From a virus, in IMG/VR virus record IMGVR_UViG_3300009158_000099, positions 1 to 38,720 of that record: a stretch of DNA of 38,720 bases; one strand, written 5' to 3'. Positions 16,701-38,720 of this stretch are shown here, in pieces. Position numbers and translations under genes: made by a program. The notes beneath the pieces were generated by a model that was not told the origin of the DNA, did no database searches, and saw only the letters and a program-made list of their open reading frames with translations. Positions within the stretch are counted from its first letter, which is position 1; the number at the start of each line of letters is the position of its first letter.

Positions 16701-19700
16701 TGTTAATCGATTCGAGGCATTGAAGCAATATATAGAACAAGTTAACATTGTACTAGGAAAAAATTTAATAGTTGATTCGTGCGATATAACCTCCTTATAT
16801 TTGTATGATCAAGTACCGAATGTTATCCACGGAAAATATGATCAAATTATAGATACATATGAAGAATTACGATTTATTTTAATTAAATCTTATAAAAAAC
16901 CAGAATTATTACCAATAATTGTAGACGGAAAAATTACAGGTGTAGAAATAATTGACTCGGGTCGAGGTTACCTAGTAGCTCCGACAATCGAAGTAGTCGG
17001 CAACGGGATAAATGCAGTTGTTGGAACTACTATTAATGCTGCTGGTAGAATTATTAGTTGTGAGGTTGTTAACAGTGGCGAAGGGTATAACGATAACACT
17101 ACTTTGATAGTTAGAAATTATTCAGTGCTGCTTTTAACCGATTCACAATCAAATAATGTGTGGAGCATATATTCATATCAACCTGAGACACTTAGCTGGT
17201 CAAAAGTTATCTCGCAATCATACGATGTTAGAAAATACTGGAATACAGTTGATTGGTATGCATCGGGTTATAATCAATTTAATCAAATTACTCATGTTGT
17301 TGACACGTATGCTGATTTAAATTCAGTTTCTGCATTAGTCGGTGAAACTGTTAAAATTCGTACAACGAGTTCGGGTAACTGGGTACTATTAGAAAAATTT
17401 GCAAATACTGATTCGATTAACTGGACACAATCGTATAAAGTCATAGGAAGTCAAAATGGTACTATTCAATTAAGCTCGACTCTGTACAAATACACTAGCA
17501 CCGATGTTGGATTTGACGGCATACGATTTGACGGTGGAGTATACGATAACAGTGCAGCAGTTGAACTTAGACTTATTTTAGACACGATTAAGAAAAATAT
17601 CTTAATTAATGAGCTTAAATCGGAATACTTAAATCTATTCTTTTCGACTGTGCGGTATGTACTAAGCGAACAAGCGTATGTTGATTGGATTTTTAAAACA
17701 AGTTTTGTAAAAGCAAATCACAACGTTGGTAGTCTTCGACAACTAGTAACATATAAAAATGATAATCTTCAAAATTTTGAAGATTATGTTTCGGAAGTTA
17801 AACCGTATCGAACACAGATACGCGAATATGTTAGTGTATTTTCAAAAGTTGAAAATACACAATCTGCAATTTCTGATTTTGATTTACCGGTAGTATATAA
17901 CGCAGCATCAAAACAAATTGCGCCGATTGCTACTAAACTAGTAGCAAACGATGAGTTAGTTACTAGTAATTCTGCAATTAATGAGTATCCTTGGAAATTT
18001 TGGTTAGACAACCTTGGATTTTCGATTATTTCGTTAGAAATAGTTGATTCGGGCTCAGGATATATTTCAGCACCGATTGTTACAATTTTAAACCAGCATG
18101 GTACGAGTGCAACTGCTCGAGCATTTATTACGAACGGAAAAGTTAGTCGTATCATACTATTAACTAAAGGTAAAGGGTATCGATCTGCACCGACTGTAAC
18201 TTTAGACGGTGGCCTTAATATCGGAGGATCACCTGCTCGAGCAGTTGCAATTATCGGTAACAGTGTTATACGATCAAATTTAATTAAAATGAAGTTTGAC
18301 CGATTAACGCAGACATATTTTATTACACAACTTCAAGAAACTGAAACATTTGTTGGATCAGGATCGCGTGCGCAATTTTCTTTAACTTGGGCACCTGACA
18401 TACGAGTTGGCACGTCGACTGTTATGGTTAATGGATTAGCGGTGTTAAAAGATTCATATGTTTTAAAAATTATAAAACTAACATCACGCGGGTATACTAG
18501 CTATCAAGGCTCATTGATATTTAATACCCCGCCTGCAATTAATTCGAAAATCTCTATTACGTATTTAAAAAATTGGAATTTATTAAATGCAGCAGATCGT
18601 GCGCATTTTTATTACAATCCGACGTCGGGCCAGCTAGGAAACGATCTTGCCCAACTCATGGGCGGAATTGATTACGGCGGTGTTATTGTTAATGGGCTAG
18701 GTTTTGAATTTAATCAAGGATGGGACGGCTCACCGTATTTTTCAGATAAATGGGATAGTGTTGATCAATCATTTGATGATTATTCGGTTACTGTTGCTGC
18801 TGATACTTATACAATAACACTTCCGTATGTTCCTGCACAAGGTACATATTTAAATGTGTATCATGTTCAATCAGCAACAGAGACCTTTAATTCAAACGGC
18901 ACTGATTTAATTTATTATTTTAGTAACGAAATTGCTACACCGACTGTAACTATTGTTAAATCAACAGTTACTCTTCCGAAAGTAATAGCTACTAAAAATG
19001 CCGTGGGGGTAACTACGTTATCTGTAAACACAACCGTTGGCATTGAAATAGGTGATGTTGTTTCGGACAGTAGTCAAACATTTTGGACTACTAAGGTTAC
19101 AATGACACATACAAACAGTGTTACAAATGTTATCTTTGTTTCTAGCACTGAAAATATGTCAATCGACACTCCGCTTTTGTTTTCAGGAAAAGGTTTTGGC
19201 GGGATAGTAAGCGGTGTATATTATGTTAAAACTATAGTTAGTGAAACTTCGTTGACAATTAGTTCATCAATCGGCGGTGCAGTGTTTGATATTCAACCTG
19301 GGGTCGACAACACTACTGTGTCAGTTGGTGCAATGGGGATTGTATTTGGGACATTTAATTCGAATACAACAGTAGTATCGATTGATAACGATACTGATAT
19401 AACATTAAACCAAATGATATATGCAGATATTGCAACTGCTACTACTATTAAATTTACACGAGTGTTAACTACAGCGAACAACATCTTTATGATTACCGAT
19501 GGACAAATTGAATTAAAGGTCCCGGTAACGTTAGCAAGTGATATTATTATTTCTGGATATCGTCCTGCGATTAGATTAGACGACCCTAACTATAACACAC
19601 CGTTGCAAACAAATGATAATGCAATAATGCAAACTATATCTGCATCTGGAACATCTGATATCGTTACAATACCAAATTCTTTAACTGTAGCAGACGGTGA

Positions 19701-24943: not shown

Positions 24944-26613
24944 TGAGTTACATTTTAAATAAGACCGATGGGTCAAAAATAACAGAGATTATCGACGGGG
25001 TAATTGATCAGACAACAACAGATTTGACATTAATTGGTAAAAATTTTAGCTCGTATGGAGAATTTTTAAATGAAAATTTTATTCATTTATTAGAGAATTT
25101 TTCAAGTACTGCGCAGCCTAATAAACCAATTACTGGGCAGCTTTGGTTTGACCTAACTGATAACCGATTAAAAGTGTATGACGGGTTGACTTTTAGAGTT
25201 AGCGGTGGCGCGTTTTATCAAAATACCCCACCGAGTTCGATATCTGCAGGCGATTTTTGGATCGACAGTGTCCGCCAACAGCTTTATTTTTACAATGGTA
25301 TTTCGCCGGTATTAATCGGACCGCAATATAACGCACAACAAGGTACCTCAGGATTTAAAACTGTTGATGTGCTGGACACTAGTAACATTAATCATACTAT
25401 ATTATTATTGTATATTTCGACTTCGTTAATTGGTATATTTAGTAAAACTATGTTTACTCCTGCTGTTAATATTTCGGGATATTCCGGAATTATTAAAATT
25501 GGTTTTAACGCAAGCGATTATGCAGGTATTAAATTTAACACTACTGCAACTCGTGCAGAATCATTAGTCGACTCGTCGGGCACAGTAGTAACTGCTGATG
25601 CATTTGTTGCAAATAACGCAGATTCGGCAATTGTTGGCACATTGTCTATACAAAAAAGAACCCCGTTAATTTTAGGGACAAATAGTAATACTGAAATTGT
25701 AGTTGATGATTTAATATGTAAAATTAATTCAAATTCAGCTGATCAAAATTTTCAAATTAATGTGTTACATAATAATCAATTATTACCTAGCATACATGTT
25801 AACACTGTTAATCAAAGAGTGGGCATATTTAAAAATAATCCCACAGCAACATTGGATGTTAATGGAGATGTTGTTATTCAAGGAAGTTTAAACGTTATCG
25901 GTGCATTGACATCGATCAACACTACTAATTTAGAAATTTCAGATAAGGTTATTTTGTTAGCAAAAACTATAACTCCTACTAACAACACTGCAGATGGATC
26001 TGGGATTAGTATTGCTGCAGGTACTGATATCGATAAAACGTTAACTTGGGACTTACTATCATTAAGTTGGACCTCGTCGGAATCGTTTAATCTAGTTACG
26101 GGTAAAACATATAAAATTAACAACACTGCAGTATTAACTTCTTCTGCATTAGGATTGACAATTACATCGGCGCCTGGTCTTTCTAGTATAGGTACGCTAA
26201 CTTCGTTACAAGTTGACAATTTAAATGTCAACGATACGACAATTAGTTATGTTAATAATTCTCAAGCCAACGGCACTATTATATTAGAACCAAAAGGTAC
26301 AGGCACTGTGGATGTGAGTAGTAAAAAAATTACAAATCTTGCAACTCCTACAGATGATAATGACGCAGTTAATTTTCTTACATTATATAATACAGTTAAA
26401 CAACAAGCGTTAGTAGTTTCATTGGATACTACTGGCCTAACAATTCTTCAAATTGCTTCGATATATTTAAATAAATTATTTCCGCCTGCAGAGCATTCGG
26501 TTGCAGGTGTTAATGGTCCAATTTGCCGAGCATGTTGCACAGAAAGTGGAGTACTAACAATCCGAGCCTATGAATTGCGTAGTGGCGTTTGGGTTTATCA
26601 AAACGATCTATAA
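24943..26613 (+). CDS. Tail fibre protein, second paralogue
   Basis: A 556-residue fibre. The N-terminal 135 residues are paralogous to the genes on both sides ('LIGKNFSSYGEFLNENFIHL', 'GQLWFDLTDNRLKVYDG'), implying a common docking point. Residues about 200-440 look like a trimeric shaft ('ATLDVNGDVVIQGSLNVIGA', 'KGTGTVDVSSKKITNLATPT'); the 'KITNLATPTDDNDAVN' pattern is common in phage fibre necks. The last 100 residues are a compact tip with an unusual 'CRACC' cluster, which might bind metal or form disulphides. No collar domain is present. It starts on the last base of the preceding stop codon with a weak ribosome binding site, so it probably depends on translational coupling. Confidence 0.8.
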   Translation: MSYILNKTDGSKITEIIDGVIDQTTTDLTLIGKNFSSYGEFLNENFIHLLENFSSTAQPNKPITGQLWFDLTDNRLKVYDGLTFRVSGGAFYQNTPPSSISAGDFWIDSVRQQLYFYNGISPVLIGPQYNAQQGTSGFKTVDVLDTSNINHTILLLYISTSLIGIFSKTMFTPAVNISGYSGIIKIGFNASDYAGIKFNTTATRAESLVDSSGTVVTADAFVANNADSAIVGTLSIQKRTPLILGTNSNTEIVVDDLICKINSNSADQNFQINVLHNNQLLPSIHVNTVNQRVGIFKNNPTATLDVNGDVVIQGSLNVIGALTSINTTNLEISDKVILLAKTITPTNNTADGSGISIAAGTDIDKTLTWDLLSLSWTSSESFNLVTGKTYKINNTAVLTSSALGLTITSAPGLSSIGTLTSLQVDNLNVNDTTISYVNNSQANGTIILEPKGTGTVDVSSKKITNLATPTDDNDAVNFLTLYNTVKQQALVVSLDTTGLTILQIASIYLNKLFPPAEHSVAGVNGPICRACCTESGVLTIRAYELRSGVWVYQNDL

Positions 26614-26615
26614 CA

Positions 26616-26623
26616 TATAAATA
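26616..26623 (+). promoter_or_regulatory. T4-type late promoter box, perfect consensus
   Basis: TATAAATA matches the T4 late consensus at all eight positions. It lies three bases after the stop codon of the second fibre gene and about 24 bases before the start of the third. Of the late boxes in this window it is the strongest. Confidence 0.75.
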
Positions 26624-26646
26624 CTAGATACTGAGGAATAACTGAG

Positions 26647-28167
26647 ATGTCATATATCATCAACAATTATAATAGAGAACAAGTTGCAATAGTAGAAGAC
26701 GGTACAATAAACACTAGTTTAGATATTAAACTAATCGGTAAAAATTATGCAGGTTACGGCGAAGCTCAAAATGAAAATTTTGTATGGCTACTTGAAAATT
26801 TTGCAAATTCGACAGCACCTTCGAGGGCAGTTACTGGCCAGCTATGGTTTGACACTGCGACAAAGAAATTAAAATTTTTTGATAGCGTGCGGTGGCGTAT
26901 TGCGGGCGGATCAGAAGTTAGTAATATATCTCCTGCAAATTTAACCGAGGGCGATTTGTGGTGGGACTCGATCAATAAACAATTAAAAGCATATGATGGT
27001 TCTAGTTTTGTTTTAGTTGGACCACAAGGTACCGGTTCACATTTAACTCAAATGCGTTCACGAACAGTAACTGCTACTATCGGAACCGGCGGAGCGACCC
27101 ATGCAATAATCGAAGCAATTGTAAATGATGCAACGATTTTTGTTATTAGTGCCGACGATGCGTATGAATTAGATTCAAATAGTAGTATTACCGGATTTAC
27201 CGTTATTAGACAGGGTATAACTTTATACAATACTCATACTGATACATTTCCAGGGCAAACACAGAGTTCTCATAGATTTTGGGGAACTGCAACTAATGCA
27301 GACAGATTAGGCGGATATGTTGCGGGTGATTTCGTGTTAAATAGTGATTTGGAATTTGATACTTTAGTTAAATTTGGTGATGTTGGTTTTTCTGTTGGGT
27401 TACCGAATCAACGGTTGTGGGTTTATAACGACAGCAGCTTAGTTCCGACTATTCACAACAAGTTAAGTGATACTATAGTATTTAAAACAACAACAGGTGT
27501 TACTACAAATACCCCGTTAAAGTTAGTTGGTTTAGACTTACTTCCTGGCATTCATCTTACATCAAACATTGGCTCTTCAACTTTAAAATATAATCGAATA
27601 TTTGCAGATTCAATGTCCGGAACTGCTGATCAAGCAAATTCCCTAAACGTAGGCGGAACTTTCCGAATAGCAAGTACTGCTGCATCATCAGGTACAATTG
27701 TTGCAAGAACATCAGCAGATGAAACAATTAGTGGTGTTAATATAACTGCAGGATCTATTAAGGCAAACTTTTTTGTAGGAACTGCAACTGCTGCGTATTA
27801 TGCTGACTTAGCGGAAAAATATCTAGCAGATGAAGATTATGAAGTTGGCACCGTAGTTAAAGTCGGAGGCGATAAAGAAGTCACTGCTGCAACATTTGGT
27901 TCTAGACCACTAGGAACGATATCCGAAAATCCTGCATATATGATGAATACTGGATTAGTAGGTGGAACATATATTGCATTAAAAGGCAGAGTGCCAGTTA
28001 AGGTAACAGGCGCTGTTAACAAAGGAGATTATTTAATTGCATCGACAATTCCTGGTGTTGCAGAATCGACTACTTATGTTTCGGCACACACTAATTTTAT
28101 ATTTGCAATTGCGCTTGAATCTAGTGAAGACTTAGAAGTTAAAATTGTCGAAGCAGTAATACTATAA
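26647..28167 (+). CDS. Tail fibre protein, third paralogue, with a common fibre C-terminal domain
   Basis: A 506-residue fibre. Residues 1-135 again carry the shared attachment domain ('LIGKNYAGYGEAQNENFVWL', 'GQLWFDTATKKLKFFDS', 'GDLWWDSINKQLKAYDGSS'). Similarity to the first paralogue continues to about residue 225 ('HRFWGTATNADRLGG' against 'KFWGTSTNADALIV'). Residues 384-506 form a distinct C-terminal domain ('YYADLAEKYLADEDYEVGTV', 'RPLGTISENPAYMMN', 'GRVPVKVTGAVNKGDYL') that recurs in phage fibres and recalls the peptidase G2/IMC processing domain. The catalytic Ser/Lys pair cannot be identified by eye, so processing is speculative. It has its own late promoter box and a GAGGA ribosome binding site. 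Confidence 0.82.
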   Translation: MSYIINNYNREQVAIVEDGTINTSLDIKLIGKNYAGYGEAQNENFVWLLENFANSTAPSRAVTGQLWFDTATKKLKFFDSVRWRIAGGSEVSNISPANLTEGDLWWDSINKQLKAYDGSSFVLVGPQGTGSHLTQMRSRTVTATIGTGGATHAIIEAIVNDATIFVISADDAYELDSNSSITGFTVIRQGITLYNTHTDTFPGQTQSSHRFWGTATNADRLGGYVAGDFVLNSDLEFDTLVKFGDVGFSVGLPNQRLWVYNDSSLVPTIHNKLSDTIVFKTTTGVTTNTPLKLVGLDLLPGIHLTSNIGSSTLKYNRIFADSMSGTADQANSLNVGGTFRIASTAASSGTIVARTSADETISGVNITAGSIKANFFVGTATAAYYADLAEKYLADEDYEVGTVVKVGGDKEVTAATFGSRPLGTISENPAYMMNTGLVGGTYIALKGRVPVKVTGAVNKGDYLIASTIPGVAESTTYVSAHTNFIFAIALESSEDLEVKIVEAVIL

Positions 28168-28177
28168 GAGGATTTAC

Positions 28178-31100
28178 ATGTCTGGTCAAAATACCCCGGT
28201 TGTTCATAACGATTATAATGTTATCCAGTCAAAAATTTCTCAGATTTTAGGAACAGGTGAAGATACCTACGGTTACGGCCAAAACGTATACAGTAGTCAA
28301 ATTTTACCACGCACGACAATTCTTGCCAATGATTGGAATAATCTTAGACTTGATTTGTTAAAAATTCGCCAACATCAAACAGGTGTTAACGAATCGGCTA
28401 GTATTCCGCTGTTAACACCTGCGTCAACTACAGTAGTAAACAATTACTTTCTAACATTATCATCAGTGTTAACTGCTGCAGAAACTAATCGGCTTATTAC
28501 CCCGCCTAGTTCGCAAGCGACACGAGAAAATTTAGTAGTTGGTACGCGCACGTCGGCGTGGAACGGCGTTGCTACCCACTTAATAGTAGTTACATTTAGT
28601 AGTGTATCTGCAGCAAGGTGGTATTTTAATACCGGAAGTACCTTTGAGTTTACTTCTTCTCGTACTAGCGGTACTGCAGATATTAAGAATGCGTCGTGGA
28701 CAAATCTTTTAAGTTCTATAGGTACCGTAACCTTTAATCATGTCATAACTGCAGTAACTGGTGCAGGTACCGGATCGGCAATCGGATATTTGACATTAAC
28801 TGCATCTAACCAAGTAATTTTTCAATCGGTTACTACTGACTCTTACACTCCTAATGATTACAGAATTCTTGCAAAAACCGGAACATCGCGTGCTCAAATA
28901 ATTTTTACTATTGAGTTTCGCGATTTATCGACTATCGGCGGAGATGTTAACATTGACGGCACGTTAACTAGTATATTAAAATCGTATCATGCATCTGGAT
29001 CGAATGTAGAAGTACCGATTCCTGCAGCTAAAAGTGCGCTAGTAGACGGAGCAGTAGCCGACGGGAACGATATAACTGCAACAATTTCAGCACCGGCTCT
29101 GGGGTCATCGGTTATTATTGCTGTCCCGCTAGTTGAACCTACTCCTACATATAGTTTCGAATCAATTTCGCCACTAGTAATAACTGAAGGTAGTGTACCG
29201 GTTAATTTTACAATTGCTACAACGTTTGTTTACAACGGTACAGTTTTATACTGGACAACTACTGGTGCAAACATAACACCTGAGGATTTTTCTGATTACG
29301 CTACAAATTTATTAATGCGCGGCACTGTTCAGATTGACAATCAAGGAAAAGGGTATATTAGCCGTTCTGCAAGAATAGATGGTACGATTCCAGAAGGAAC
29401 TGAAAAATTTCGAATTAAATTATATAGTAACGGATACCCTGATGACGTTAATGTTAACAGTAAGTTTCTTATTGAAAGCCAGGATATAGCTATTACTGAT
29501 GCATTTTTACCGACGTTTAATATTGAACCAATACCGACTATAATATCAGAAGGGCAAACACCGGTAACTTTTAAAATTACTTCTACAAATGCCCCTGTTG
29601 GTACCAGATTGTACTGGACAACTGAAGGTGCAGGTATTACCTTTGAAGATTTTACTGATTATCAAACTAATCCAGATATGCAAGGGTATTTTGATCTTAA
29701 TGCATTGGGAAGTTATGAATTATTGAGAACTGCACGACTTGATACTGTAGTTGAAAGTAAAGAATATTTTCGGATTAATTTATATACTGGTGGGTATCCG
29801 GCTGCATCGACAAGTAAATTGGTAAAAACTAGTACTGATGTTCAAATTATTAATTTAACTGCTGATCCGGTTATTACTAGTAACTATACAATAAGTGCAG
29901 CTCCTTCTAAATTAATCGAAGGAGATACTGTTACATTTAGCATAGATGGCGGTACATCTGCAGCCGGAGTCCGAGTTTATTGGACCACTGAATCATATGG
30001 TACTGGATTAACTAAAGAAGACTTCTTTGACTATGCAACAAATCCACTCATGCGCGGCACCGTTGTTCTTAATTCAAACGGTACTTATGATTTAACTCGA
30101 ACAATTAATACTGACAAATCATTAGAAGGTGATGAATATTTTCGAATTAAGTTATATACTGGAGGATTCCCAGACGAAGCAGTTTCGACTAGTAAACTTG
30201 AACAGAACAGTCCTTATGTTACAATTTCTGACCCACCGCCTACTGCTCCGATCGATACTACGGTGCCTGCTAGTGTTTATACTGTTATCGCAGATCCGTT
30301 AGTTGTGGCGGAGACTAAAATTGTAACTTTTACAATTAATGGCGGTACATCTGCAGCCGGAAATAAGTTATACTGGAAAACAGACGCATTCGGTACAGGA
30401 ATTTCTAATGAAGATTTTTCTGATTATGCTACAAATCCGTTAATGCGAGGGTCATTTAATCTCAATTCGTCTGGAGTTTACAGTTTTGAACGCACGATTA
30501 GACAAGACAATGTATACGAAGATGCAGAGTATTTTCAAATTAAATTTTATTCCGGAGGGTATCCGGGAGAAGTTAACAGTAAATTTGAACAAAATAGCCC
30601 ATTTATTAAAATCGAGGCAAATTTACCTGTTAATTCACAACCGAACCCGACTGCTACTTATTCAATTGTACCGTTTCCAGATGAATCTGTTAGTTCAATA
30701 ACAGAGGGCGCGAATGGTATTTCTTTTAAAGTTTCAACAGAAAATGTTCCAGTGGATACTGTATTATACTGGACTACTGTGTCAGTGTCTAGCGATATTA
30801 ATGAAGTAACTGCTGCTGACTTTACAGATTACGATACGAATCCAGATATGCGCGGTAGGGTGTATATCGGACCAACGGGCGAAGCGTTAGATTTAATCGT
30901 CAGAGCTGCCCAATTTGATAAAAACGTTGAAAATAAAAAATTTGCGATTGCATTGCGAACTAATCGATATTCGGGTGATGTAGTTAAAACAAGTAAAACT
31001 ATTTCGATACTAGATTCAGCAAGCACGTTCAGTATTACGCCTGATGCAAATATCGTCGGTGAGGGCATTAGCCAAGTTAATTATACAGTGCATACAACTG

Positions 31101-33628
31101 GTATTCCGAATGGGACCGTATTATACTGGACAACAAAATTATATGAAACAAATGGTGTCGAAGCAGCTGATTTTATTGATTACCTTACTAACCCTGACAT
31201 GCGCGGAACAGTAACAGTTGATAGTACTCAACCTGATCCTAAAATTGTCAGAGCATTACGTGCTGATCAAAAATCTGAAGACACTGAAGTATTTGCAATT
31301 GAATTACGAACTAAAAGTTATACTGGACAGGTAGTTGCATCTAGTCTCGGAGATAACAACGAAGAACCGCCTACTACTGTATTAGATTTGTCACAAGATC
31401 CGGACTATTCGTTGACTGCATCGGCAGTTACTATACCGTCAGCATCGATTAATGAAACAACAAATAGATTAATTTTAGTAACGTTTACTAATATCGGAGT
31501 ACCGATCGGAACAAAATTATATTATTCGTTAGCTACTGGACCAGGAAAAATTTCGTTTGCAGATATAACTAAAGTTAGCGGACCAGCGTTAAACGAAACA
31601 GAACAATCTTTTATCGTCAGCGGCCCAACAATGACATGGCAATGGCAAGTAGTTGAAGATCATGTGTCCGAGACCACCGAAACTTTTACTATGCAAATAC
31701 GAAGCGGGTCAAAAACTGGACAGCTACGTGCGTCTAATCCAGCGTTGATAGTATTAGATACTTCTAAAACTCCTAGTTATACAATTTCTGCAACACCGTT
31801 AATTATTAATGAAACTACTAATACTACGATTACTGTTACTGTGAATATTTTAAATGGTGTCGACGGTGCTGTGTTGTATATGGGCATAGGCGGAGGTAGT
31901 GCAGGATGGAGTGATTTTGAATCAGCATCGTTTCCGACCCTAGGACTTAATCATGAATTTACAGTTAGTGGATCGACTATGACGTTTGCATTTAACGTAT
32001 TAACTGACCATCTTACTGAGGGCACTGAACTCTTTACTTTTGATTTAGCTAGCGAATATCCAGTTGCAGGGCATATTATAACATCGTCGCAACTGATAAC
32101 AATTAACGACACATCTAAAGATTATCCAACGTATGCAATTCTAGGAACAACTGGAATTGCAGCATCACCTAATATAGTCGACGAAGCGACTACTACTGCA
32201 CATACAACTACGACTGTTGTTCGCGAACAAATATGGAACATGAAAACCGCCGGTCCGGATCTTGCAGGCACAGTAGTTAAAGGATTGACAGGAGATGTGT
32301 GGGGCAAATGGATGAATGCAAATGCAGTCTATTATAAGGTATCCGGTATGAAAGTATCATGGCGTGTTAACTTCCCTCATACCGGTGAGTATATTTTCCA
32401 ACATGGTTCTGACCAAAAGGGAATATTTTGGCTTGACACTGCTCAAATAGCATCTACTGGATTTTCATATGGGTCCGGTGTTCAGACTAGTGTTAATGCG
32501 TCAGCAGGTATGCACACTGTTACTGTTCAGTTTACAGGTGACGGCAACGGGAGTGACGGGGTTGCGCTTGTTATTTTTGATACTACATCCTCTTCTTCTA
32601 CATACACTACTACACAACCGACAGTTACTTTTAATGTTGCAACTACTAATGTCGAAATGGACACATTGTTATATTGGAAAATTGTTAATGAGTTGGGCTT
32701 GGACATTAACGTATCGGATTTTTCTGGGCTTACATCTTTAGATGACACGGTTACTATTGACAGTTTAGGTAACGGATTAATAATTTTACCAATTGCAGAA
32801 GATAAAGACACTGAAGGACCTGAAAGTTTTAAAGTCGAATTATACACTGATAGTATGTACACTAACAAAGTTAGAACTAGTAATACTATTACAATTAGCG
32901 ACACGTCAAAAACTCCGGCAGGGGCACAAGTATTTGCCCAGCCTAATCAATATAGTTGGACCGTACCGCGCGGTATTACTTCGATTCAAATAACAGTAGA
33001 TGGCGCAGGTGGCGGATCGGGCGGAAAAGATGATAATAAAGCAGGTCATGGCGGGTATTCAGGTGCTCGTGTGTCAGGTACACTAGCTGTTACTCCAAGC
33101 GAAGTTTTAACAATTGGAGTTGGCGGTGGTGGAAATTTTGGTTCTAATCAAGTAACAAACAAAGGAGCCGGAGTTGGCGGACTTGGCGCAGGCGGGTTGT
33201 ATGCAGGCGGGATAGGCGGCAATGCTGGACCGACAGGCAGTTCTGGAGCAGGTGGCGGTGGTGGCGCAGCATCGTTTATATTAAGAGACGGTGTACCTAT
33301 TGTAGTTGCTGCAGGCGGTGGCGGTGGCGGCGGCGCTGGATTAAAAGGTGTCGGGCTTGATTCAATCGTACCTGCAGTATATTCTGCTAGTGTAAATGGC
33401 GGCCCTGGACCATTTAGAATAGGCGATGGTGGTGGACCAGGTGGCGGTGGCGCCGGCCACCCATTCGGTGGCATGGGTGGTACGTATAATAGTGGTGACA
33501 CTGGCGCATATTCTGGACAAACTGGACAATCGCTTGTTCCGGGCGGATGCATTGCTGCAGTTGCGACAAACGGTGGTACGTATCATTTTCCTGGCGGTAC
33601 CGGAAGCATTACATTAAAATGGGGATAA
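28178..33628 (+). CDS. Giant Calx-beta-repeat adhesin with PA14-like insert and glycine-rich tip
   Basis: An 1816-residue fibre or adhesin. Residues 1-300 form an N-terminal domain shared with the gene after it ('YGYGQNVYSSQIL', 'WNNLRLDLLKIRQHQTGVNE', 'AARWYFNTGS'). Residues 324-1578 contain nine Calx-beta-like repeats of about 115-125 residues, with signature 'EG...V.F.I.T...GT.LYWTT...DF.DY.TNPDMRG' and closing 'E..E.F.I.L' strands. The ninth repeat is split by a PA14-like module (about 1340-1478). Residues 1585-1816 are glycine-rich, with many GGGG runs, as in glycine-rich adhesin tips. In other systems Calx-beta repeats make long, often calcium-stabilised stalks. It has an AGAGGA site ten bases after the previous gene and no promoter of its own. 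Host-receptor binding is the likely role. Confidence 0.82.
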   Translation: MSGQNTPVVHNDYNVIQSKISQILGTGEDTYGYGQNVYSSQILPRTTILANDWNNLRLDLLKIRQHQTGVNESASIPLLTPASTTVVNNYFLTLSSVLTAAETNRLITPPSSQATRENLVVGTRTSAWNGVATHLIVVTFSSVSAARWYFNTGSTFEFTSSRTSGTADIKNASWTNLLSSIGTVTFNHVITAVTGAGTGSAIGYLTLTASNQVIFQSVTTDSYTPNDYRILAKTGTSRAQIIFTIEFRDLSTIGGDVNIDGTLTSILKSYHASGSNVEVPIPAAKSALVDGAVADGNDITATISAPALGSSVIIAVPLVEPTPTYSFESISPLVITEGSVPVNFTIATTFVYNGTVLYWTTTGANITPEDFSDYATNLLMRGTVQIDNQGKGYISRSARIDGTIPEGTEKFRIKLYSNGYPDDVNVNSKFLIESQDIAITDAFLPTFNIEPIPTIISEGQTPVTFKITSTNAPVGTRLYWTTEGAGITFEDFTDYQTNPDMQGYFDLNALGSYELLRTARLDTVVESKEYFRINLYTGGYPAASTSKLVKTSTDVQIINLTADPVITSNYTISAAPSKLIEGDTVTFSIDGGTSAAGVRVYWTTESYGTGLTKEDFFDYATNPLMRGTVVLNSNGTYDLTRTINTDKSLEGDEYFRIKLYTGGFPDEAVSTSKLEQNSPYVTISDPPPTAPIDTTVPASVYTVIADPLVVAETKIVTFTINGGTSAAGNKLYWKTDAFGTGISNEDFSDYATNPLMRGSFNLNSSGVYSFERTIRQDNVYEDAEYFQIKFYSGGYPGEVNSKFEQNSPFIKIEANLPVNSQPNPTATYSIVPFPDESVSSITEGANGISFKVSTENVPVDTVLYWTTVSVSSDINEVTAADFTDYDTNPDMRGRVYIGPTGEALDLIVRAAQFDKNVENKKFAIALRTNRYSGDVVKTSKTISILDSASTFSITPDANIVGEGISQVNYTVHTTGIPNGTVLYWTTKLYETNGVEAADFIDYLTNPDMRGTVTVDSTQPDPKIVRALRADQKSEDTEVFAIELRTKSYTGQVVASSLGDNNEEPPTTVLDLSQDPDYSLTASAVTIPSASINETTNRLILVTFTNIGVPIGTKLYYSLATGPGKISFADITKVSGPALNETEQSFIVSGPTMTWQWQVVEDHVSETTETFTMQIRSGSKTGQLRASNPALIVLDTSKTPSYTISATPLIINETTNTTITVTVNILNGVDGAVLYMGIGGGSAGWSDFESASFPTLGLNHEFTVSGSTMTFAFNVLTDHLTEGTELFTFDLASEYPVAGHIITSSQLITINDTSKDYPTYAILGTTGIAASPNIVDEATTTAHTTTTVVREQIWNMKTAGPDLAGTVVKGLTGDVWGKWMNANAVYYKVSGMKVSWRVNFPHTGEYIFQHGSDQKGIFWLDTAQIASTGFSYGSGVQTSVNASAGMHTVTVQFTGDGNGSDGVALVIFDTTSSSSTYTTTQPTVTFNVATTNVEMDTLLYWKIVNELGLDINVSDFSGLTSLDDTVTIDSLGNGLIILPIAEDKDTEGPESFKVELYTDSMYTNKVRTSNTITISDTSKTPAGAQVFAQPNQYSWTVPRGITSIQITVDGAGGGSGGKDDNKAGHGGYSGARVSGTLAVTPSEVLTIGVGGGGNFGSNQVTNKGAGVGGLGAGGLYAGGIGGNAGPTGSSGAGGGGGAASFILRDGVPIVVAAGGGGGGGAGLKGVGLDSIVPAVYSASVNGGPGPFRIGDGGGPGGGGAGHPFGGMGGTYNSGDTGAYSGQTGQSLVPGGCIAAVATNGGTYHFPGGTGSITLKWG
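29147..32911 (+). repeat. Nine Calx-beta-like tandem repeats
   Basis: Repeat starts are at about residues 324, 446, 569, 700, 827, 950, 1076, 1200 and 1318 of the 1816-aa adhesin. Copies 1-6 keep the 'LYWTT...DF.DY' core and, where clearest, 'TNPDMRG' or 'TNPLMRG'. Copies 7-9 are more diverged ('LYYSLATGPG', 'LYMGIGGG', 'LYWKIVNE'). Copies 3 and 4 share an identical 23-base stretch at 29946-29968 and 30339-30361, which points to a relatively recent duplication within the array. Confidence 0.75.
32195..32611 (+). other. PA14-like domain inserted in the ninth Calx-beta-like repeat
   Basis: Residues about 1340-1478 read like a PA14/lectin-type sandwich: 'WRVNFPHTGEYIFQHGSDQK', then 'GIFWLDTAQIASTG', then 'ASAGMHTVTVQFTGDG' and 'GVALVIFD'. 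Thr/Ser-rich linkers flank it ('TTTAHTTTTVV' before, 'TTSSSSTYTTT' after). The host repeat resumes with 'PTVTFNVATTNVEMDTLLYW'. PA14 domains commonly bind sugars, so a carbohydrate-contact role is inferred. Confidence 0.55.
32930..33628 (+). other. Glycine-rich C-terminal tip of the adhesin
   Basis: The last 232 residues begin with a beta strand region ('YSWTVPRGITSIQITVDGAG') and then alternate glycine runs ('GVGGGG', 'GAGVGGLGAGGLYAGG', 'AAGGGGGGGAG', 'GGGPGGGGAG') with short polar or aromatic linkers. This layout is that of glycine-rich phage adhesin tips such as the gp38-type polyglycine-II sandwich, where loops determine host range. Base composition is visibly more GC-rich than the surroundings because of Gly codons. 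Confidence 0.6.
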
Positions 33629-33645
33629 CGATATCAAAATCGTTA
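33626..33645 (+). other. Short stem-loop at the end of the adhesin gene
   Basis: TAACGAT (33626-33632) pairs with ATCGTTA (33639-33645) around a six-base loop, overlapping the stop codon. No run of T follows, so it is not a convincing intrinsic terminator. It overlaps the late-promoter-like box just downstream and could protect the 3' end of the mRNA. Confidence 0.35.
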
Positions 33646-33649
33646 AATA
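33642..33649 (+). promoter_or_regulatory. Late-promoter-like box upstream of the 293-aa gene
   Basis: GTTAAATA matches TATAAATA at six of eight positions and lies 41 bases before the next start codon in a 61-base gap. It is weaker than the boxes at 4254, 22131 and 26616, but its intergenic placement is consistent with a late promoter. Confidence 0.4.
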
Positions 33650-33689
33650 CATACATTAAAAACATTAATTAAAGAATATAGGAAAGTAA

Positions 33690-34571
33690 ATGGCCGGAGT
33701 AGGAACTAACATAACAGCAGCTGATTATAATGCTATTCAAACTAAAATATCAGATGTCATGGCAACGGGAGCAGGAAATTACGGGTATGGCCAAGCTATC
33801 AATAGTAGTCAGGTTTCTACATCGTTAATTGCTACTGTTACCCAATGGAACAATTTAAGAGCTGATTTGCTACGAGCAAGACAACACCAAACTGGAGTAG
33901 ATGAAAGCACTAATCTTACAGCAGCTACAACTAGTACAAAAATTTCCGAAACGATTCGTACTCAGTACGATACGTTTGCTAATACCGTAGCTACAAATAG
34001 GAATGTAGTACCGCCAACAGGGCAAGGTTCGCGACTATCGTTATCTGCGTTGACTAGAACTACTGCATGGAATACGTTAATCACACACACTATTACATTA
34101 ACATTTGCAAGTTTAAATGCAGCAAGGTGGTATTTTAATGCAGGCGGCGTGATTGAATTTACAGCAAGTTTACCTGATGACGGCACAACTGCTACAAAAA
34201 ATAATTCTTGGTACTTATTATTGCGCAATATGGGTAAAATCTCTTTTGTATTAGCGTCGACATTTGCATCAGGGTCCGGAACCGGATCAAATATAGGTTA
34301 CTCTTCATTGACATCGACGGATCAGCTAGTTTTTCAAAAAACTACAGAAGCTCCGACGTATAATCCTAACGCATACAGAATATATGCAAGAACCGGATCG
34401 AGTACAGCTCAGATAATATTTACAATTCAGTTTAACGATAGCTATGCGCCCGGAGGGTACGGAATCGACGAAAATGTCACTGGTGTCATATCAAGTACAG
34501 TCGAAGGGTATTATGCATCTGGAACAAATGTTTCAGTTACTGCACCGTCTGCAACGGCATCATTCCCGTAA
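33690..34571 (+). CDS. Short fibre/adhesin-associated protein paralogous to the adhesin N-terminus
   Basis: A 293-residue protein that aligns along nearly its whole length with residues 1-300 of the preceding 1816-aa adhesin. Matching points include 'YNAIQTKISDVMATG', 'YGYGQAINSSQV', 'WNNLRADLLRARQHQTGVDE', 'AARWYFNAGG' and 'IIFTIQFND'. It lacks the repeats and the tip. It could be a cap, a short decoy fibre, or an alternative subunit occupying the same virion site. AGGAAAG precedes the ATG. I know this domain only as a structural protein of T4-like marine phages. Confidence 0.7.
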   Translation: MAGVGTNITAADYNAIQTKISDVMATGAGNYGYGQAINSSQVSTSLIATVTQWNNLRADLLRARQHQTGVDESTNLTAATTSTKISETIRTQYDTFANTVATNRNVVPPTGQGSRLSLSALTRTTAWNTLITHTITLTFASLNAARWYFNAGGVIEFTASLPDDGTTATKNNSWYLLLRNMGKISFVLASTFASGSGTGSNIGYSSLTSTDQLVFQKTTEAPTYNPNAYRIYARTGSSTAQIIFTIQFNDSYAPGGYGIDENVTGVISSTVEGYYASGTNVSVTAPSATASFP

Positions 34572-34587
34572 ATCAATATTTGTCTAT

Positions 34588-34637
34588 TTGTATCTCCTTA
34601 AATGCTAATTAAAATTAGTAGATTTAAGGAGATACAA
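34588..34637 (+). promoter_or_regulatory. Perfect 16-bp inverted repeat sequestering a ribosome binding site
   Basis: TTGTATCTCCTTAAAT (34588-34603) is the exact reverse complement of ATTTAAGGAGATACAA (34622-34637). The 18-base loop can itself pair (CTAAT 34605-34609 with ATTAG 34614-34618). The right arm contains the AAGGAG Shine-Dalgarno and reaches the A of the ATG at 34637, so a transcript reading through from upstream would hide the start site. No T run follows either arm, so it is not an intrinsic terminator. Confidence 0.85.
34597..34604 (+). promoter_or_regulatory. Possible weak late promoter box inside the hairpin
   Basis: CTTAAATG matches TATAAATA at five of eight positions and shares the TTAAAT core with the box at 33642. 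If used, transcription would begin in the hairpin loop, giving an mRNA without the left arm and with an exposed Shine-Dalgarno. The match alone is weak in AT-rich DNA; the placement is what makes it noteworthy. Confidence 0.3.
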
Positions 34638-34987
34638 TGGACACCCGAATAGAAACCGCATTTGAAGTTGCAAATTATATGGCAACTTTATCCAATCAAC
34701 GCCGCATTATCTTAGAAGAATTTGATCAGCAGTTAGTATATTATACTAATGGTGCAACTTTTAAGATTGGACCAGAATTAATTAGTATTATCAAAACTAT
34801 GTTAGATTTAGGACATACTACTGATATTGCAATTGTAGATACTAACAATTTACCTGTAATAATTTCTGATTTGCAATCATTTTTTGATGATATTTTTTCA
34901 ATATATTTTGAAGCAGTAAACGATTATGCAGCAAAATTTAGTGATATATCATCGAAACGAAAACTTAAAGATATGGTCGAATTATGA
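34637..34987 (+). CDS. Conserved small helical protein heading the glycosyltransferase-like cluster
   Basis: A 116-residue protein, mostly helical by composition, acidic, with no known catalytic motif. It begins 'MDTRIETAFEVANYMATLSN' and has a central 'YYTNGATFKIGPELISIIKT' segment and a C-terminal helix ending 'SSKRKLKDMVEL'. I believe similar short proteins lie next to tail genes in T4-like marine phages, without a function. It has the strongest ribosome binding site in this stretch (AAGGAG), but that site lies within a perfect hairpin. Its stop overlaps the next start (ATGA), so whatever controls its translation may also control the downstream gene. An assembly or chaperone role is only a guess. 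Confidence 0.65.
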   Translation: MDTRIETAFEVANYMATLSNQRRIILEEFDQQLVYYTNGATFKIGPELISIIKTMLDLGHTTDIAIVDTNNLPVIISDLQSFFDDIFSIYFEAVNDYAAKFSDISSKRKLKDMVEL

Positions 34988-35829
34988 CTACCGGTGCTTT
35001 GATATTTGCACAAAATAACACTGATATAGATTATGTTAAAATGGCAATTTTTTGCGCAGCGCGTGTTCGATTATATTTAAATATCCCAGTGTCGATCGTG
35101 ACTGATTCTAAAAATTGGTTAGAAACTTCGTATCCTGATCATAATTTTGATCAAATAATTGAAATCGACCAAAGTACTGAACAAAAGAGAGTTATGTTCG
35201 ATGGCACACTGTCATCTATTTTATCAGAATGGAAAAATTTTTCAAGATACCTGGCTTACGAGTTAACACCGTACGACACTACTATAGTGTTAGACTGCGA
35301 TTATATATTAAATTCGCCAATACTAAACATGTCTTTAGACCAAGATTACGATTTTCAAATTTATAAAAAAAGTTTTGATCTTGCAGAATGGCGACCAACA
35401 TTTGAATTTGAAAGGATTAATCAATATTCTATTCCATTTTATTGGGCAACTGTGTTTGTGTTTAAAAAATCAGCAATTATTGAGTCTTTTTTTAATTTAA
35501 TTTTTTATATTAGAGAAAATTGGGAATATTTTAGAGTGTTGTACAGCATTGAAACTAAGTTATTTAGAAACGATTTTGCATTTAGCATTGCAATTCATAT
35601 AATGAACGGTAAGACTAATGGAGAGTTCGCAGTTGAATTACCGGGAACAATGACATATATTACAGATAAAGATCTATTAATTAATGCAAAAGATAACAAA
35701 ATGCAATTTTTAGTAGAAAAAGAGAATTGTCTAGGTGAATATATAGCTGCAAAAACAACTGGTATTGATGTACATGTAATGAATAAGATAAGTCTAAATC
35801 GATATATTGATGAGGTGAGTAATGTCTAA
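34984..35829 (+). CDS. GT-A-fold glycosyltransferase-like protein, first copy
   Basis: A 281-residue protein with a nucleotide-sugar transferase layout. The N-terminal strand is 'GALIFAQNNTDIDYVKMAIF', followed by 'IPVSIVTDS', and the putative metal-binding DxD motif is in 'YDTTIVLDCDYILNS' (DCD, about residues 100-110). That arrangement resembles GT8-type transferases, which bind UDP-sugars with a divalent metal. Acceptor and sugar cannot be read. It is paralogous to the next gene, which it overlaps by eight bases; it overlaps the gene before by four. There is no good Shine-Dalgarno of its own, so coupling to the 116-aa gene is likely. Confidence 0.65.
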   Translation: MTTGALIFAQNNTDIDYVKMAIFCAARVRLYLNIPVSIVTDSKNWLETSYPDHNFDQIIEIDQSTEQKRVMFDGTLSSILSEWKNFSRYLAYELTPYDTTIVLDCDYILNSPILNMSLDQDYDFQIYKKSFDLAEWRPTFEFERINQYSIPFYWATVFVFKKSAIIESFFNLIFYIRENWEYFRVLYSIETKLFRNDFAFSIAIHIMNGKTNGEFAVELPGTMTYITDKDLLINAKDNKMQFLVEKENCLGEYIAAKTTGIDVHVMNKISLNRYIDEVSNV

Positions 35830-36667
35830 AGGATTTTTAGTAGTTGCACAAAATACACCATCGGTTGATTATATCAAGCAGGCGTATGCACTTGCACTAT
35901 CGATAAAATTTAGTCAAAATACGTATAATAAGATATCAATAATGACTAATGATTTAGTTAGCGATGAGTATAGCGCAGTCTTTGATAAAATTATAGCAAT
36001 ACCGTGGAATGATGCTGCAGTAGACTCAGAGTGGAAGGTTGAAAATAGATGGAAGGTTTTTCATATTACTCCGTATGATGAAACAATTGTGTTAGACGCT
36101 GATATGTTGCTATTAGAAGACATTAGTAAATGGTGGCAATACTGTAGTAACTATGATCTTAAATTTTGTTCAAGAATTAAAAATTATAAACTCGAACCAG
36201 TAATTGATAATGTATATAGAAATGCGTTTTCTTATAATCACCTTCAAAACCCATATTCGGCATTGCACTATTTTAAAAAGTCAGACAGCGCATACACTTT
36301 TTATAAAGTTCTCGAATTTGTTTGTTATAATTGGGAATGGGCATGGACAACAGTTGCTCCGGCATACTATCAAAAATGGTTAAGTATAGATCTTGCGGTT
36401 GCTGTTGCAATCGAACTACTAGGTTTACAAGAAACTGCAGTAGATCGAATTTCACCGTTGGAATTTATTCATATGAAACCTGCATTGCAAGGATGGCACG
36501 AGACTCCGGAAAAATGGCAAGATGTAGTTCCTGCAATGTTAAATTCAAAAGGTGACCTAGTAGTTGGCAATATTAAACAATCAAAATTATTTCATTATGT
36601 TGAAAAAGATTTTATAAATGACAAATTATTAACACAACTAAAAGAGTTAGCACATGGCAAAACGTAA
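35822..36667 (+). CDS. GT-A-fold glycosyltransferase-like protein, second copy
   Basis: A 281-residue paralogue of the previous gene and of identical length. Equivalent segments are 'GFLVVAQNTPSVDYIKQAYA', 'KISIMTNDL' and 'YDETIVLDADMLLLEDI', the last carrying a canonical DAD metal-binding motif. The C-terminal half is Trp/Tyr-rich ('YNWEWAWTTVAPAYYQKW', 'FIHMKPALQGWHE'), with 'HMKP' resembling the late His segment of GT8-like enzymes. A GAGGTGAG ribosome binding site lies within the end of the preceding gene. Tandem, diverged copies suggest successive sugar additions or two acceptors, but the sequence does not show which. Confidence 0.68.
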   Translation: MSKGFLVVAQNTPSVDYIKQAYALALSIKFSQNTYNKISIMTNDLVSDEYSAVFDKIIAIPWNDAAVDSEWKVENRWKVFHITPYDETIVLDADMLLLEDISKWWQYCSNYDLKFCSRIKNYKLEPVIDNVYRNAFSYNHLQNPYSALHYFKKSDSAYTFYKVLEFVCYNWEWAWTTVAPAYYQKWLSIDLAVAVAIELLGLQETAVDRISPLEFIHMKPALQGWHETPEKWQDVVPAMLNSKGDLVVGNIKQSKLFHYVEKDFINDKLLTQLKELAHGKT

Positions 36668-37253
36668 ATCTAAATCTAAAAAAACCAACGCCGCATTGAT
36701 GCCCGTTGATCCAAAATACTATGTATATTATGATGATGCCGGCTGCATATTTTTAGTATCAAATGAGTTTACTACTGCGTTTGATAATTTTTTAGAAATA
36801 AATTACGACGAGTACTACACACTAGTATCCGGAATCGAACCGTTATCTAATTATAGAGTTGGTTATAAAGACAGTGATAAAATTTCATTATATTCGTTAC
36901 TTAATCCGACGATTTCATTTAAAAATGATTTATTGGCCTGGGTATGTGACTCACCTGATAGTGATACTAGATTGATCGTCGAATGGAATAACAAAATCAA
37001 ATATTGGGTATTTAATGTAGCAGAAGAAGGTCGACCGTTCGTGCAATCATATTCGCAGGTATTAGTGTTTTTTGTTACATTAGAAAATGATTTTGATTTT
37101 TTAATACGAACAATAAAAATTAAACCAGCAGATCTGTTAGCGTCTTCTGTTTATATCCCATTTGAAAGCAAGTTCGAAACAAATATTGATAAAATAACAT
37201 TGATAACAAGTAAAGTGTTAAAATCATACGGATTAGTAATTACCCATGAGTAA
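36654..37253 (+). CDS. Unknown protein with basic N-terminus in the glycosyltransferase-like cluster
   Basis: A 199-residue protein that I do not recognise functionally. It opens with a strongly basic segment ('MAKRKSKSKKTNAALMPVDP') followed by 'KYYVYYDDAGCIFLVSNEF'. The rest is mixed alpha/beta, with no DxD motif, signal peptide or membrane segment. It overlaps the gene before by 14 bases and the gene after by eight, so it is embedded in the same translational unit. The basic tail could contact nucleic acid or an acidic partner protein. Confidence 0.6.
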   Translation: MAKRKSKSKKTNAALMPVDPKYYVYYDDAGCIFLVSNEFTTAFDNFLEINYDEYYTLVSGIEPLSNYRVGYKDSDKISLYSLLNPTISFKNDLLAWVCDSPDSDTRLIVEWNNKIKYWVFNVAEEGRPFVQSYSQVLVFFVTLENDFDFLIRTIKIKPADLLASSVYIPFESKFETNIDKITLITSKVLKSYGLVITHE

Positions 37254-38145
37254 TATTATAAAAATTATTGAACAAGATGTTATATTCTTAAGTTACGATG
37301 AACCAAATGCTGAAAAAAATTATGCCGATTTACTTAAAAAAATTCCGTGGGCTAAACGGGTTCACGGTGTAAAAGGCAGCGACGCTGCCCATAAAGCATG
37401 CGCAGCGTTAAGTGACACTGAATACTTTGTAACCGTTGATGCTGATAACATCATTGATCCTGCATTTTTAAGATTAGAAATTGATTTAGATAAATTAGGA
37501 TTAACATCTGAACACGTATTTAGTTGGTGCGGGAAAATTCATGTTAACGGGTTAATGTATGGTAATGGCGGGTTAAAAATGTGGACTCGCAAATTTGTTA
37601 ATGAGATGCAAACACACGAAAATGCAGATCCTAATGATATTAAAAGTAAAGTTGAATTTTGTTTTGACGATCGTTATTATCAGTTTCCTGAAAACTATTC
37701 TGTTAGTTATACGAATGCAACTCCGTTTCAAGCATGGCGAGCAGGATTTCGCGAAGGTGTTAAAATGTGTCTTGATCAAGGTGCAAAAGTTAATGATCTT
37801 ACTACAGTGTGGTGGCAAAACTATCATAGATTGCTAGTGTGGTGTAATGTCGGTAACGATGTTGAAAACGGTGAATGGTCGATTATAGGTGCAAGGGAAG
37901 GTTGTTTACTAACAGCTAACTCAACGTGGGATTATGCAAATGTTAGAGATTTCGAATGGTTAACAACTTACTGGGAAGACACCTATAAAGATTGGAGGAA
38001 TGTGCAAATTTGCAAACGTCGAGAACTGCTTGGTGACGAAATACGAGAAAAATTAGGATTACCAGTTTCGTATCTTGACAGCGAAGGTAGTAAATTTTTT
38101 AAAACAGTCTACAATAATTCGCCACGTTATAGGATCAAACACTAA
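37246..38145 (+). CDS. GT2-like glycosyltransferase-family protein
   Basis: A 299-residue protein of a type I know from T4-like marine phages. It shows 'VIFLSYDEPNAEKNYADLLK', then 'PWAKRVHGVKGSDAAHKACA', then 'TEYFVTVDADNIIDPAF' with a DAD motif at about residues 65-67, and 'HVNGLMYGNGGLKMWTRKF'. This order (substrate strand, nucleotide pocket, metal-binding DxD, acceptor loop) is that of GT-A-fold GT2-like transferases. The C-terminal half is Trp-rich. Which sugar and which target are unknown; virion protein, DNA base and host surface glycan all remain possible. It overlaps both neighbours. Confidence 0.68.
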   Translation: MSNIIKIIEQDVIFLSYDEPNAEKNYADLLKKIPWAKRVHGVKGSDAAHKACAALSDTEYFVTVDADNIIDPAFLRLEIDLDKLGLTSEHVFSWCGKIHVNGLMYGNGGLKMWTRKFVNEMQTHENADPNDIKSKVEFCFDDRYYQFPENYSVSYTNATPFQAWRAGFREGVKMCLDQGAKVNDLTTVWWQNYHRLLVWCNVGNDVENGEWSIIGAREGCLLTANSTWDYANVRDFEWLTTYWEDTYKDWRNVQICKRRELLGDEIREKLGLPVSYLDSEGSKFFKTVYNNSPRYRIKH

Positions 38146-38720
38146 TGTACGATATATTTTTTATTTCAGATGATTCAAAATATGCTACTAATAAATTTGC
38201 ACAATTAAAGTTAAAATACCCGTTAGCAAAACGTGCAGCTTCTATTAATACAGCACAACAACACTCGTTTACTAAATTTCTCTGGATTGTATATTCGGAC
38301 CTTACAATCTTAGATACATTTTCCTTTGATTATACAGTCCAAGAATGGGCTAAAGATTATGTTCATATATTTAAAAATGATAATGAATATACTGGAGTTA
38401 TTTTAATTTCAAAGATAAGATTTCTTTCGACAAACGAAATAGATCATAGGTTTTATCTTAATAGCAATGAAGTTAATATTAACGCATCAACAGTTGTGCA
38501 ATATGATAGATTTGTTATTGACTCGTATGATGAATACCTGTATGCTCTTGATCATACAACTACTGAAATGTTTTGGATGGAATCAAAAGATATTGTCGCA
38601 GTTGATGATTTTAAATTTGATTTACATTTTAAATTTAACAATTTTTATGATCGAGACAAAAATCACGCATTTTTACATTTAGAAGATGACGAACAAACAT
38701 ATAATGGCATATTTTTATGT
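38145..38720 (+). CDS. Partial, degenerate and internally repeated relative of the GT2-like family
   Basis: The frame opens at an ATG on the last base of the previous stop codon (TAATG) and stays open for 192 codons to the window edge, so the C-terminus is missing. The start 'MYDIFFISDDSKYATNKFAQ' and 'KYPLAKRAASINTAQQH' follow the layout of the preceding GT2-like protein. Where that protein has the DAD motif, this one has 'FLWIVYSDLTILDTFSFDY', without DxD. A second, diverged copy of that segment occurs later: 'EMFWMESKDIVAVDDFKFDL'. Loss of the metal-binding acidic pair suggests a non-catalytic binding or scaffold role. Reasoning rests on motif comparison by eye. Confidence 0.62.
   Translation, partial: MYDIFFISDDSKYATNKFAQLKLKYPLAKRAASINTAQQHSFTKFLWIVYSDLTILDTFSFDYTVQEWAKDYVHIFKNDNEYTGVILISKIRFLSTNEIDHRFYLNSNEVNINASTVVQYDRFVIDSYDEYLYALDHTTTEMFWMESKDIVAVDDFKFDLHFKFNNFYDRDKNHAFLHLEDDEQTYNGIFLC

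Follow-up and report, generated by a model that had tools for sequence, protein, structure and literature searches.

A hairpin over the ribosome-binding site of a phage glycosyltransferase-like cassette: a putative lock against late read-through RNA

From which RNA can the first gene of a phage cassette be translated, when its Shine-Dalgarno and the first base of its start codon lie within the arm of a long hairpin? The question is raised by a locus in the IMG/VR virus record IMGVR_UViG_3300009158_000099, whose 38,720 nucleotides were analysed as a whole and are called the window below. The gene concerned, p116, is followed by two glycosyltransferase-like genes and preceded, on the same strand, by a gene that would be the source of read-through RNA entering it (Table 1).

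The hairpin and the cassette behind it

The two arms are complementary throughout and form a perfect 16-nt inverted repeat with 18 nt between them, and both the AAGGAG Shine-Dalgarno and the A of the p116 ATG fall in the right arm, just as the earlier note had described. This is the longest perfect inverted repeat of the window; three pairs of 18 nt found in it reach a complementarity of merely 78%. The length also lies beyond the maximum of 14 bp encountered when the window was simulated 200 times with an order-2 Markov model (loops of at most 40 nt); 169 of these simulations were without any perfect repeat of 12 bp or more. The RNA fold of positions 34560-34680 was computed at -33.7 kcal/mol versus -14.5 (sd 2.9) for shuffles, a z of -6.75, and the minimum-energy fold contains 25 pairs spanning 34584-34640, with a stem of 16 + 6 pairs and a two-base bulge. 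Additional pairs from the loop bases are present as had been suggested, though they number six and not five. The hairpin of the window is real, and the original observation of it is confirmed.

Table 1. Coordinates of the hairpin, of the neighbouring genes and of a -10-like hexamer in the window
Feature	Coordinates	Strand	Remarks
Upstream gene	33690..34571	+	Same strand as p116; ends 65 nt before p116
Left arm	34588..34603	+	TTGTATCTCCTTAAAT; predicted to pair with the ribosome-binding site on read-through RNA
Loop region	34604..34621	+	Inner stem GCTAAT/ATTAGT; apical loop of 4 bases
-10-like hexamer TAAAAT	34610..34615	+	At -27 from the ATG, within the -10 range of the relatives (-31 to -23); weak candidate
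Right arm	34622..34637	+	Includes AAGGAG, the Shine-Dalgarno, at 34626-34631 and, at 34637, the A of the start codon
p116	34637..34987	+	116 aa; first gene of the cassette
Glycosyltransferase-like gene 1	34984..35829	+	281 aa; joint profile with gene 2 resembles glycogenin (GT8)
Glycosyltransferase-like gene 2	35822..36667	+	281 aa; paralogue of gene 1
199-aa cassette gene	36654..37253	+	Fast-evolving
299-aa cassette gene	37246..38145	+	54-100% identity among relatives to the protein of the window

The cassette that follows the hairpin runs from p116 through the two paralogous glycosyltransferase-like genes to the 199-aa and 299-aa genes, with overlapping ends. All five genes occur together in 74 of the 77 fetched loci with a length of 9 kb or more, a sample in which some contigs were fetched more than once, and no match to the 199-aa gene was found in the remaining three. 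p116 matched no Pfam or PHROG family; its predicted structure is an alpha/beta fold (mean pLDDT 88) with a weak prefoldin-like resemblance, and a structural comparison yielded nothing below E 0.001. A pooled profile of the two paralogues (A3, built from 12 sequences of gene 2 and five of gene 1, 17 in all) recovered glycogenin with a best E of 2.9e-05 over positions 4-106, and every one of the 19 distinct sequences that it matched is a glycogenin, which gives the joint profile the similarity to solved enzymes that is expected of the glycogenin type, GT8. Pfam showed no glycosyltransferase family in the cassette, and no transposase family was matched by its genes. The 299-aa protein is strongly conserved and looks glycosyltransferase-like by eye only; no solved relative of it was found. 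A further cassette gene seems to begin at 38145, overlapping the stop codon of the 299-aa gene and occupying the end of the window (38145-38720), and its counterpart in the relative G002 is a gene of 238 aa.

As to the nature of the phage, the p116 region of the window has an identical copy in a 53.5-kb IMG/VR contig, and the baseplate genes of the window include a gp25-like gene, a hub/lysozyme and a tail collar. The hub protein matched 60 phage records, the best among the matches listed being jumbo phages such as PA5oct, XaC1 and GAP32 at 29-34% identity. p116 and the first glycosyltransferase-like protein found no match in the phage collection, nor did the DNA of positions 33600-38720 show similarity to named phages. 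The window thus belongs to a T4-like large phage group, for which the collection offers no named close relative. Thirteen of 17 related contigs, fragments in many cases, carry a homologue of gp55, the T4 late sigma factor.

Promoters and predicted locks in the related leaders

Three scans yielded 197 loci, all of them with p116 and 78 of them fetched only via the glycosyltransferase-like gene; two of the scans supplied the best 80 of 94 and the best 80 of 229 relatives, and a number of contigs are represented two or three times. After nine truncated loci were dropped, the other 188 gave 91 distinct leaders of 60 nt. These were scored, out of 12, for the match to TTGACA, a spacer of 16-18 nt and TATAAT with the -10 near -26. 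The scores are sharply two-peaked (three leaders at 12, 60 at 11, 19 at 10, none at 9, seven at 8 and two at 7), such that a sigma70 promoter close to consensus, with a score of 10-12, is present in 82 of the 91 leaders, and one with a score of 11-12 in 63. The low group comprises nine leaders, that of the window included. Among the other gene starts of the first 117 loci, which were called with a simple ORF script, merely 6 of 736 score 10 or more. The promoter-bearing leaders have an exact TTGACA in 70 cases and a 17-nt spacer in 71, and their -10 box begins between -31 and -23, at -26 in 39 of them. The combination of TTGACA, 16-18 nt and TATAAT thus stands above background in the relatives and does not do so in the window.

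The predicted hairpin encloses the -10 box in all 82 promoter-bearing leaders, with a median of 18 enclosing pairs, and in RNA beginning at the predicted +1 none of these pairs is left in any of the 82. The predicted loss of the 5' strand from local transcripts is accordingly a property of the family and not of the window. On the upstream side, a same-strand open frame ends 50-114 nt before p116 in 90 of the 91 leaders, the remaining one being too short, and a scan of positions 26500-34700 of the window found no terminator-like sites.

Two other arrangements of sigma70 promoters were noted in this group. At least 12 of the 17 related contigs contain a promoter whose spacer is filled by a GC-rich hairpin, the arms of which change together; an example reads TTGACA-CCTCC-TTCG-GGAGG-TGTTATAAT. 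One, at 147144-147172 (-) of G002, in L127, is flanked by genes for a MoxR-like AAA ATPase and a DUF2201 VWA/metallopeptidase, and others are at 18896 of G001, 8431 of G004, 33279 of G006, 6904 of G015 and elsewhere. Such a spacer hairpin may insulate its promoter from read-through at the RNA level. The second is a conserved sigma70 promoter (TTGACT or TTGACA, then TATAAT or TATTAT) some 0.5 kb ahead of the gp55-matching stretch, a promoter which in G002 (105917-105945, -) stands directly before a called gene start and which also occurs in G005, G007 and G013-G017.

To express the strength of the lock we used the energy needed to open positions -15 to +6, on read-through versus local RNA. The predicted cost averages 15.5 versus 3.0 kcal/mol for 81 promoter-bearing leaders, and 17.1 versus 2.6 kcal/mol for the nine promoterless ones, where the 'local' RNA was cut at -14 and is not that of a known start. 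The read-through cost exceeds the local cost by at least 5 kcal/mol in 90 of 90 leaders measured, one of the 91 having too little upstream sequence. For 64 of the 65 leaders of an earlier set the sequence upstream of +1 was dinucleotide-shuffled, which gave 7.8 kcal/mol on average, and 61 of the 64 exceed at least 90% of their own 30 shuffles, the exceptions being L111, which opens at just 7.3 kcal/mol, L019 and L070. The lock predicted for the window is the strongest of these 64 (25.4).

The same calculation was applied to T4 yardsticks, for which the cost falls from 16.0 to 3.4 (gene 49), from 13.3 to 0.4 (I-TevII) and from 15.3 to 4.8 or 2.3 (e); 46 T4 starts, yardsticks included, have a mean of 6.9, and five of them reach 12. 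In a 345-kb relative 431 called starts average 6.2, and the cassette start, at 15.4, ranks eighth with seven above it. Strong predicted locks are not unique to the cassette start, which is in that genome the clearest case where a strong sigma70 promoter coincides with a strong lock and its release. A possible second promoter within a lock was seen at 234678 (-) of G002, in L131, where ATGACA-17-TATAAT is found and the predicted opening cost drops from 15.8 to 5.6. The leader of T4 gene 55 (L221, 3601-4158, -) has a predicted lock of 15.2 kcal/mol that would fall to 4.6 for RNA starting at a TATAAT within the hairpin; if real, T4 itself would have a lock that contains a middle-type promoter.

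The unpaired probability of the Shine-Dalgarno core, which was also tried as a measure, proved too narrow: its mean on read-through RNA is 0.23 versus 0.31 with shuffled left sides, and it lies below 0.3 in 42 of 64 leaders. The contrast is weak because the Shine-Dalgarno (GGAG) of many relatives sits in an internal loop between two helices. By prediction the Shine-Dalgarno and/or the start codon is held in a helix on read-through RNA, and judging from these models the lock is better described as closure of the whole start region.

The proposed mechanism and its alternatives

These features suggest the following scheme. RNA entering from the upstream tail genes would fold such that the hairpin covers the Shine-Dalgarno and start codon of p116, which would then be poorly translated from this mRNA. 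In the form that is most frequent and probably ancestral, a sigma70 promoter of the host type would span the hairpin, with the -35 before the left arm, the left arm as the spacer and the -10 in or beside the loop; local transcripts would have their 5' end in the right arm, so that the left arm is missing from them and their ribosome-binding site stays open. The cassette would be expressed early and blocked on late read-through RNA. Promoter activity, timing and the effect of the lock on translation are all things that we infer, and on the strength of sequence, folding models and analogy with T4 we give a probability of roughly two in three to a lock of the T4 type with reversed timing, by which an early cassette is kept silent on late read-through mRNA. 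There is about an even chance that the arrangement is more specifically an early-only valve, in which an early promoter sits in the loop of a lock that closes off a late tail operon, the cassette is translated from early RNA alone and remains silent on the abundant read-through RNA of late infection, and the lock outlives the promoter in several lineages, that of the window among them. That it would be the time-reversed counterpart of the T4 lysozyme switch is part of this valve reading, and we hold it just as evenly balanced.

The lineage of the window has the lock without a recognisable promoter. Its leader has a sigma70 score of 8.5, which is equalled by 63.5% of shuffles and so is not above chance, and no -35 matching the TAAAAT hexamer was found in it; were that hexamer the -10, the predicted transcript start would be 34622. 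A MotA-like box near TGCTAA, picked out by eye, was rejected since it has no fitting -10. A core of 40 nt (34593-34632) is identical between the window and the leader L004, and the would-be -35 is not conserved between the two. On a quick tree of the 91 rows, with SH-aLRT support only and a midpoint root, the promoterless label requires five changes, at least two of which well-supported branches make unavoidable, and the promoter is present in the deepest group (L038 and L039). From the five changes and the promoter in the deepest group it follows that the promoter was probably lost or replaced more than once, with the lock kept. In the lineage of the window it may have decayed, or may have been replaced by a kind not recognised here, the lock persisting and appearing strong. 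A pattern search of viral contigs for a motif common to the promoterless leaders found just three known contigs, and because of this no new promoter type could be defined.

In this lineage the hairpin might instead serve another end with no internal promoter, either constitutive damping or RNase III-like processing that frees the ribosome-binding site. A stem of 16 + 6 pairs is long enough for RNase III, and the bulged stem of the window is of that size; the nine leaders that combine a strong lock with no recognised promoter and the 40-nt identity with L004 would suit this account too. Set against it are the -10-like TAAAAT at a conserved place, the lack of any direct sign of processing and the strength of the lock, which damping alone would not explain. 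We regard it as unlikely.

The timing proposed for the reversed lock rests on the promoter classes of the group. The late box of these phages is ATAAATA; over 800 distinct starts of neighbouring genes, 78 of the 82 boxes are found in the interval from -24 to -36. Among 524 starts with a good Shine-Dalgarno it is observed 72 times at this place versus 0 expected, and in the window it stands ahead of the genes at 4280, 22159 and 26647. It is absent from the p116 leaders (0 of 91), where no internal promoter of the late class (TATAAATA) was seen. In the 345-kb relative, 14 sigma70 promoters with no more than one mismatch cluster on a single strand within the first 8 kb, and for ten of them a called gene start is no further than 80 nt away, a pattern that an early region would show; across that whole contig a reversed control pattern occurs 15 times in the same direction versus 21 for the sigma70 pattern. 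Sigma70 promoters are early in T4-like phages, and because of this, together with the use of the late box by the neighbouring tail genes, we infer early-only expression: by analogy, the internal promoter would be early and the read-through RNA late. With a sigma70 promoter whose -10 lies inside the hairpin in 82 of 91 leaders, the timing would be opposite to that of T4 e, soc and 49.

The earlier note had taken the hairpin for a late switch of the T4 type, where read-through or early RNA is folded and a late promoter in the left arm, CTTAAATG, gives translatable mRNA. Its hairpin logic is that of T4 e, soc, 49 and I-TevI as given in an excerpt of PMC3014915, and CTTAAATG, which is indeed present at 34597-34604, would start RNA near 34610 and hence without the left arm. 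However, the word lies at -40 from the ATG, outside the late-box range, and the window has fewer matches to it, one mismatch allowed, than chance would give (46 found, 66 expected). At the late-box place of the 524 starts TTAAATG occurs 0 times versus 0.6 expected and TAAATG 0 times versus 1.5, while CTTAAAT, the first seven letters of CTTAAATG, occurs twice versus 0.6, too low a count to carry weight. Given its position, its lack of enrichment and the different box of the group, the reading of CTTAAATG as a late box is unsupported and was rejected, and the word gives no sign of being a variant of ATAAATA. Moreover, 82 of 91 leaders carry a sigma70 promoter instead, and a late lock would have little to do because the cassette already follows late genes. 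What survives of the original proposal is a ribosome-binding-site lock released by a start within the hairpin, which the relatives support well; its late promoter is not supported, and the switch in its late form is very unlikely.

The preferred reading places the pairing in RNA. In 37 representatives, no two of which are 80% or more alike in both arms, the arms of a leader pair with each other at a mean of -10.78 kcal/mol versus -7.00 (sd 0.41) when permuted, and 0 of 20,000 permutations, which ignore relatedness, reached the observed value. Compensatory change of the arms in related phages, which had been put forward as a check, is thereby borne out: between the window and L004 two double changes and two one-sided changes keep pairs and two pairs are broken, and the most distant leaders, L038 and L039 (45 and 43% identical at the protein level), show the same arrangement with arms of unrelated sequence. 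The sense fold is lower than the antisense fold in 79 of the 91 leaders and in 37 of 46 in a reduced set, and G-U pairs make up 199 of 1625 sense pairs versus 47 of 1420 antisense pairs. The sense-strand fold and the G-U excess speak for RNA over a DNA dyad, with a possible contribution from the purine-rich Shine-Dalgarno.

Operators are commonly placed over the -10 box, and the dyad encloses that box in 82 leaders, which would suit a palindrome bound by a repressor or activator, with the RNA pairing incidental. But the arm sequences vary widely with their pairing kept, the sense strand pairs better than the antisense with about four times more G-U (the purine bias of the Shine-Dalgarno bearing on this too), and nine leaders retain the hairpin without the promoter, so that a DNA operator seems to us quite improbable. 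An intrinsic terminator of the tail operon, as might be imagined from a stable hairpin behind the last tail gene, is rejected: the stem is AT-rich and followed by a ribosome-binding site and gene with no U-run, and the terminator scan did not report it.

Relation to known read-through locks

As a class of mechanism, the lock on a ribosome-binding site is already known. What is new is the early-type promoter in the lock with late genes upstream, its occurrence in 82 of 91 leaders and a lock that persists where this promoter is absent. A literature search, whose coverage falls short of most subscription journals and which is weak evidence of novelty, found no paper that describes a lock of this kind with an early promoter in it. 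If the reversed lock is true, the phage lock would be a general filter of read-through that works in either temporal direction, and its signature, a -10 box in the loop of a hairpin over the ribosome-binding site, would find genes insulated from read-through. It would also raise the question of why glycosyltransferase-like genes of the tail region should be kept off in late infection.

In the transposase genes of IS10 and IS50 a fold-back pairs the ribosome-binding site on read-through RNA only, and this protects them from outside transcription. The internal promoter and the protection from read-through are points of likeness; the difference is that there a mobile element guards its transposase, whereas here a cassette occupies one place in a phage family. 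For sigG of Bacillus subtilis a hairpin of 20+ bp has been proposed to block translation of spoIIG read-through, and it likewise would be unable to form when transcription starts at the promoter of sigG itself (PMC5942855, in part). Unlike the present case, sigG is a cellular gene under sporulation sigma factors, with no phage early/late pair.

The T4 systems are close in their layout too. The sections of PMC3014915 consulted describe inhibitory structures at the start sites of e, soc, 49 and I-TevI, and for e a translated RNA that comes from late promoters and is without the 5' strand. An excerpt of PMC2988022 gives I-TevI the same arrangement as e and describes every T4 gene and homing endonuclease under this control as a late gene that is present on early and middle transcripts. 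In these locks (e, soc, 49 and I-TevI, and also I-TevII, I-TevIII, segB and mobE of Aeh1) a promoter likewise lies inside the hairpin over the ribosome-binding site, the read-through RNA is folded and the local RNA open, and the opening energies of e, 49 and I-TevII are similar to those predicted here. They differ in that their internal promoter is late (or middle) and their read-through RNA early or middle, whereas in the present family the promoter is of the sigma70 type and the upstream genes are late.
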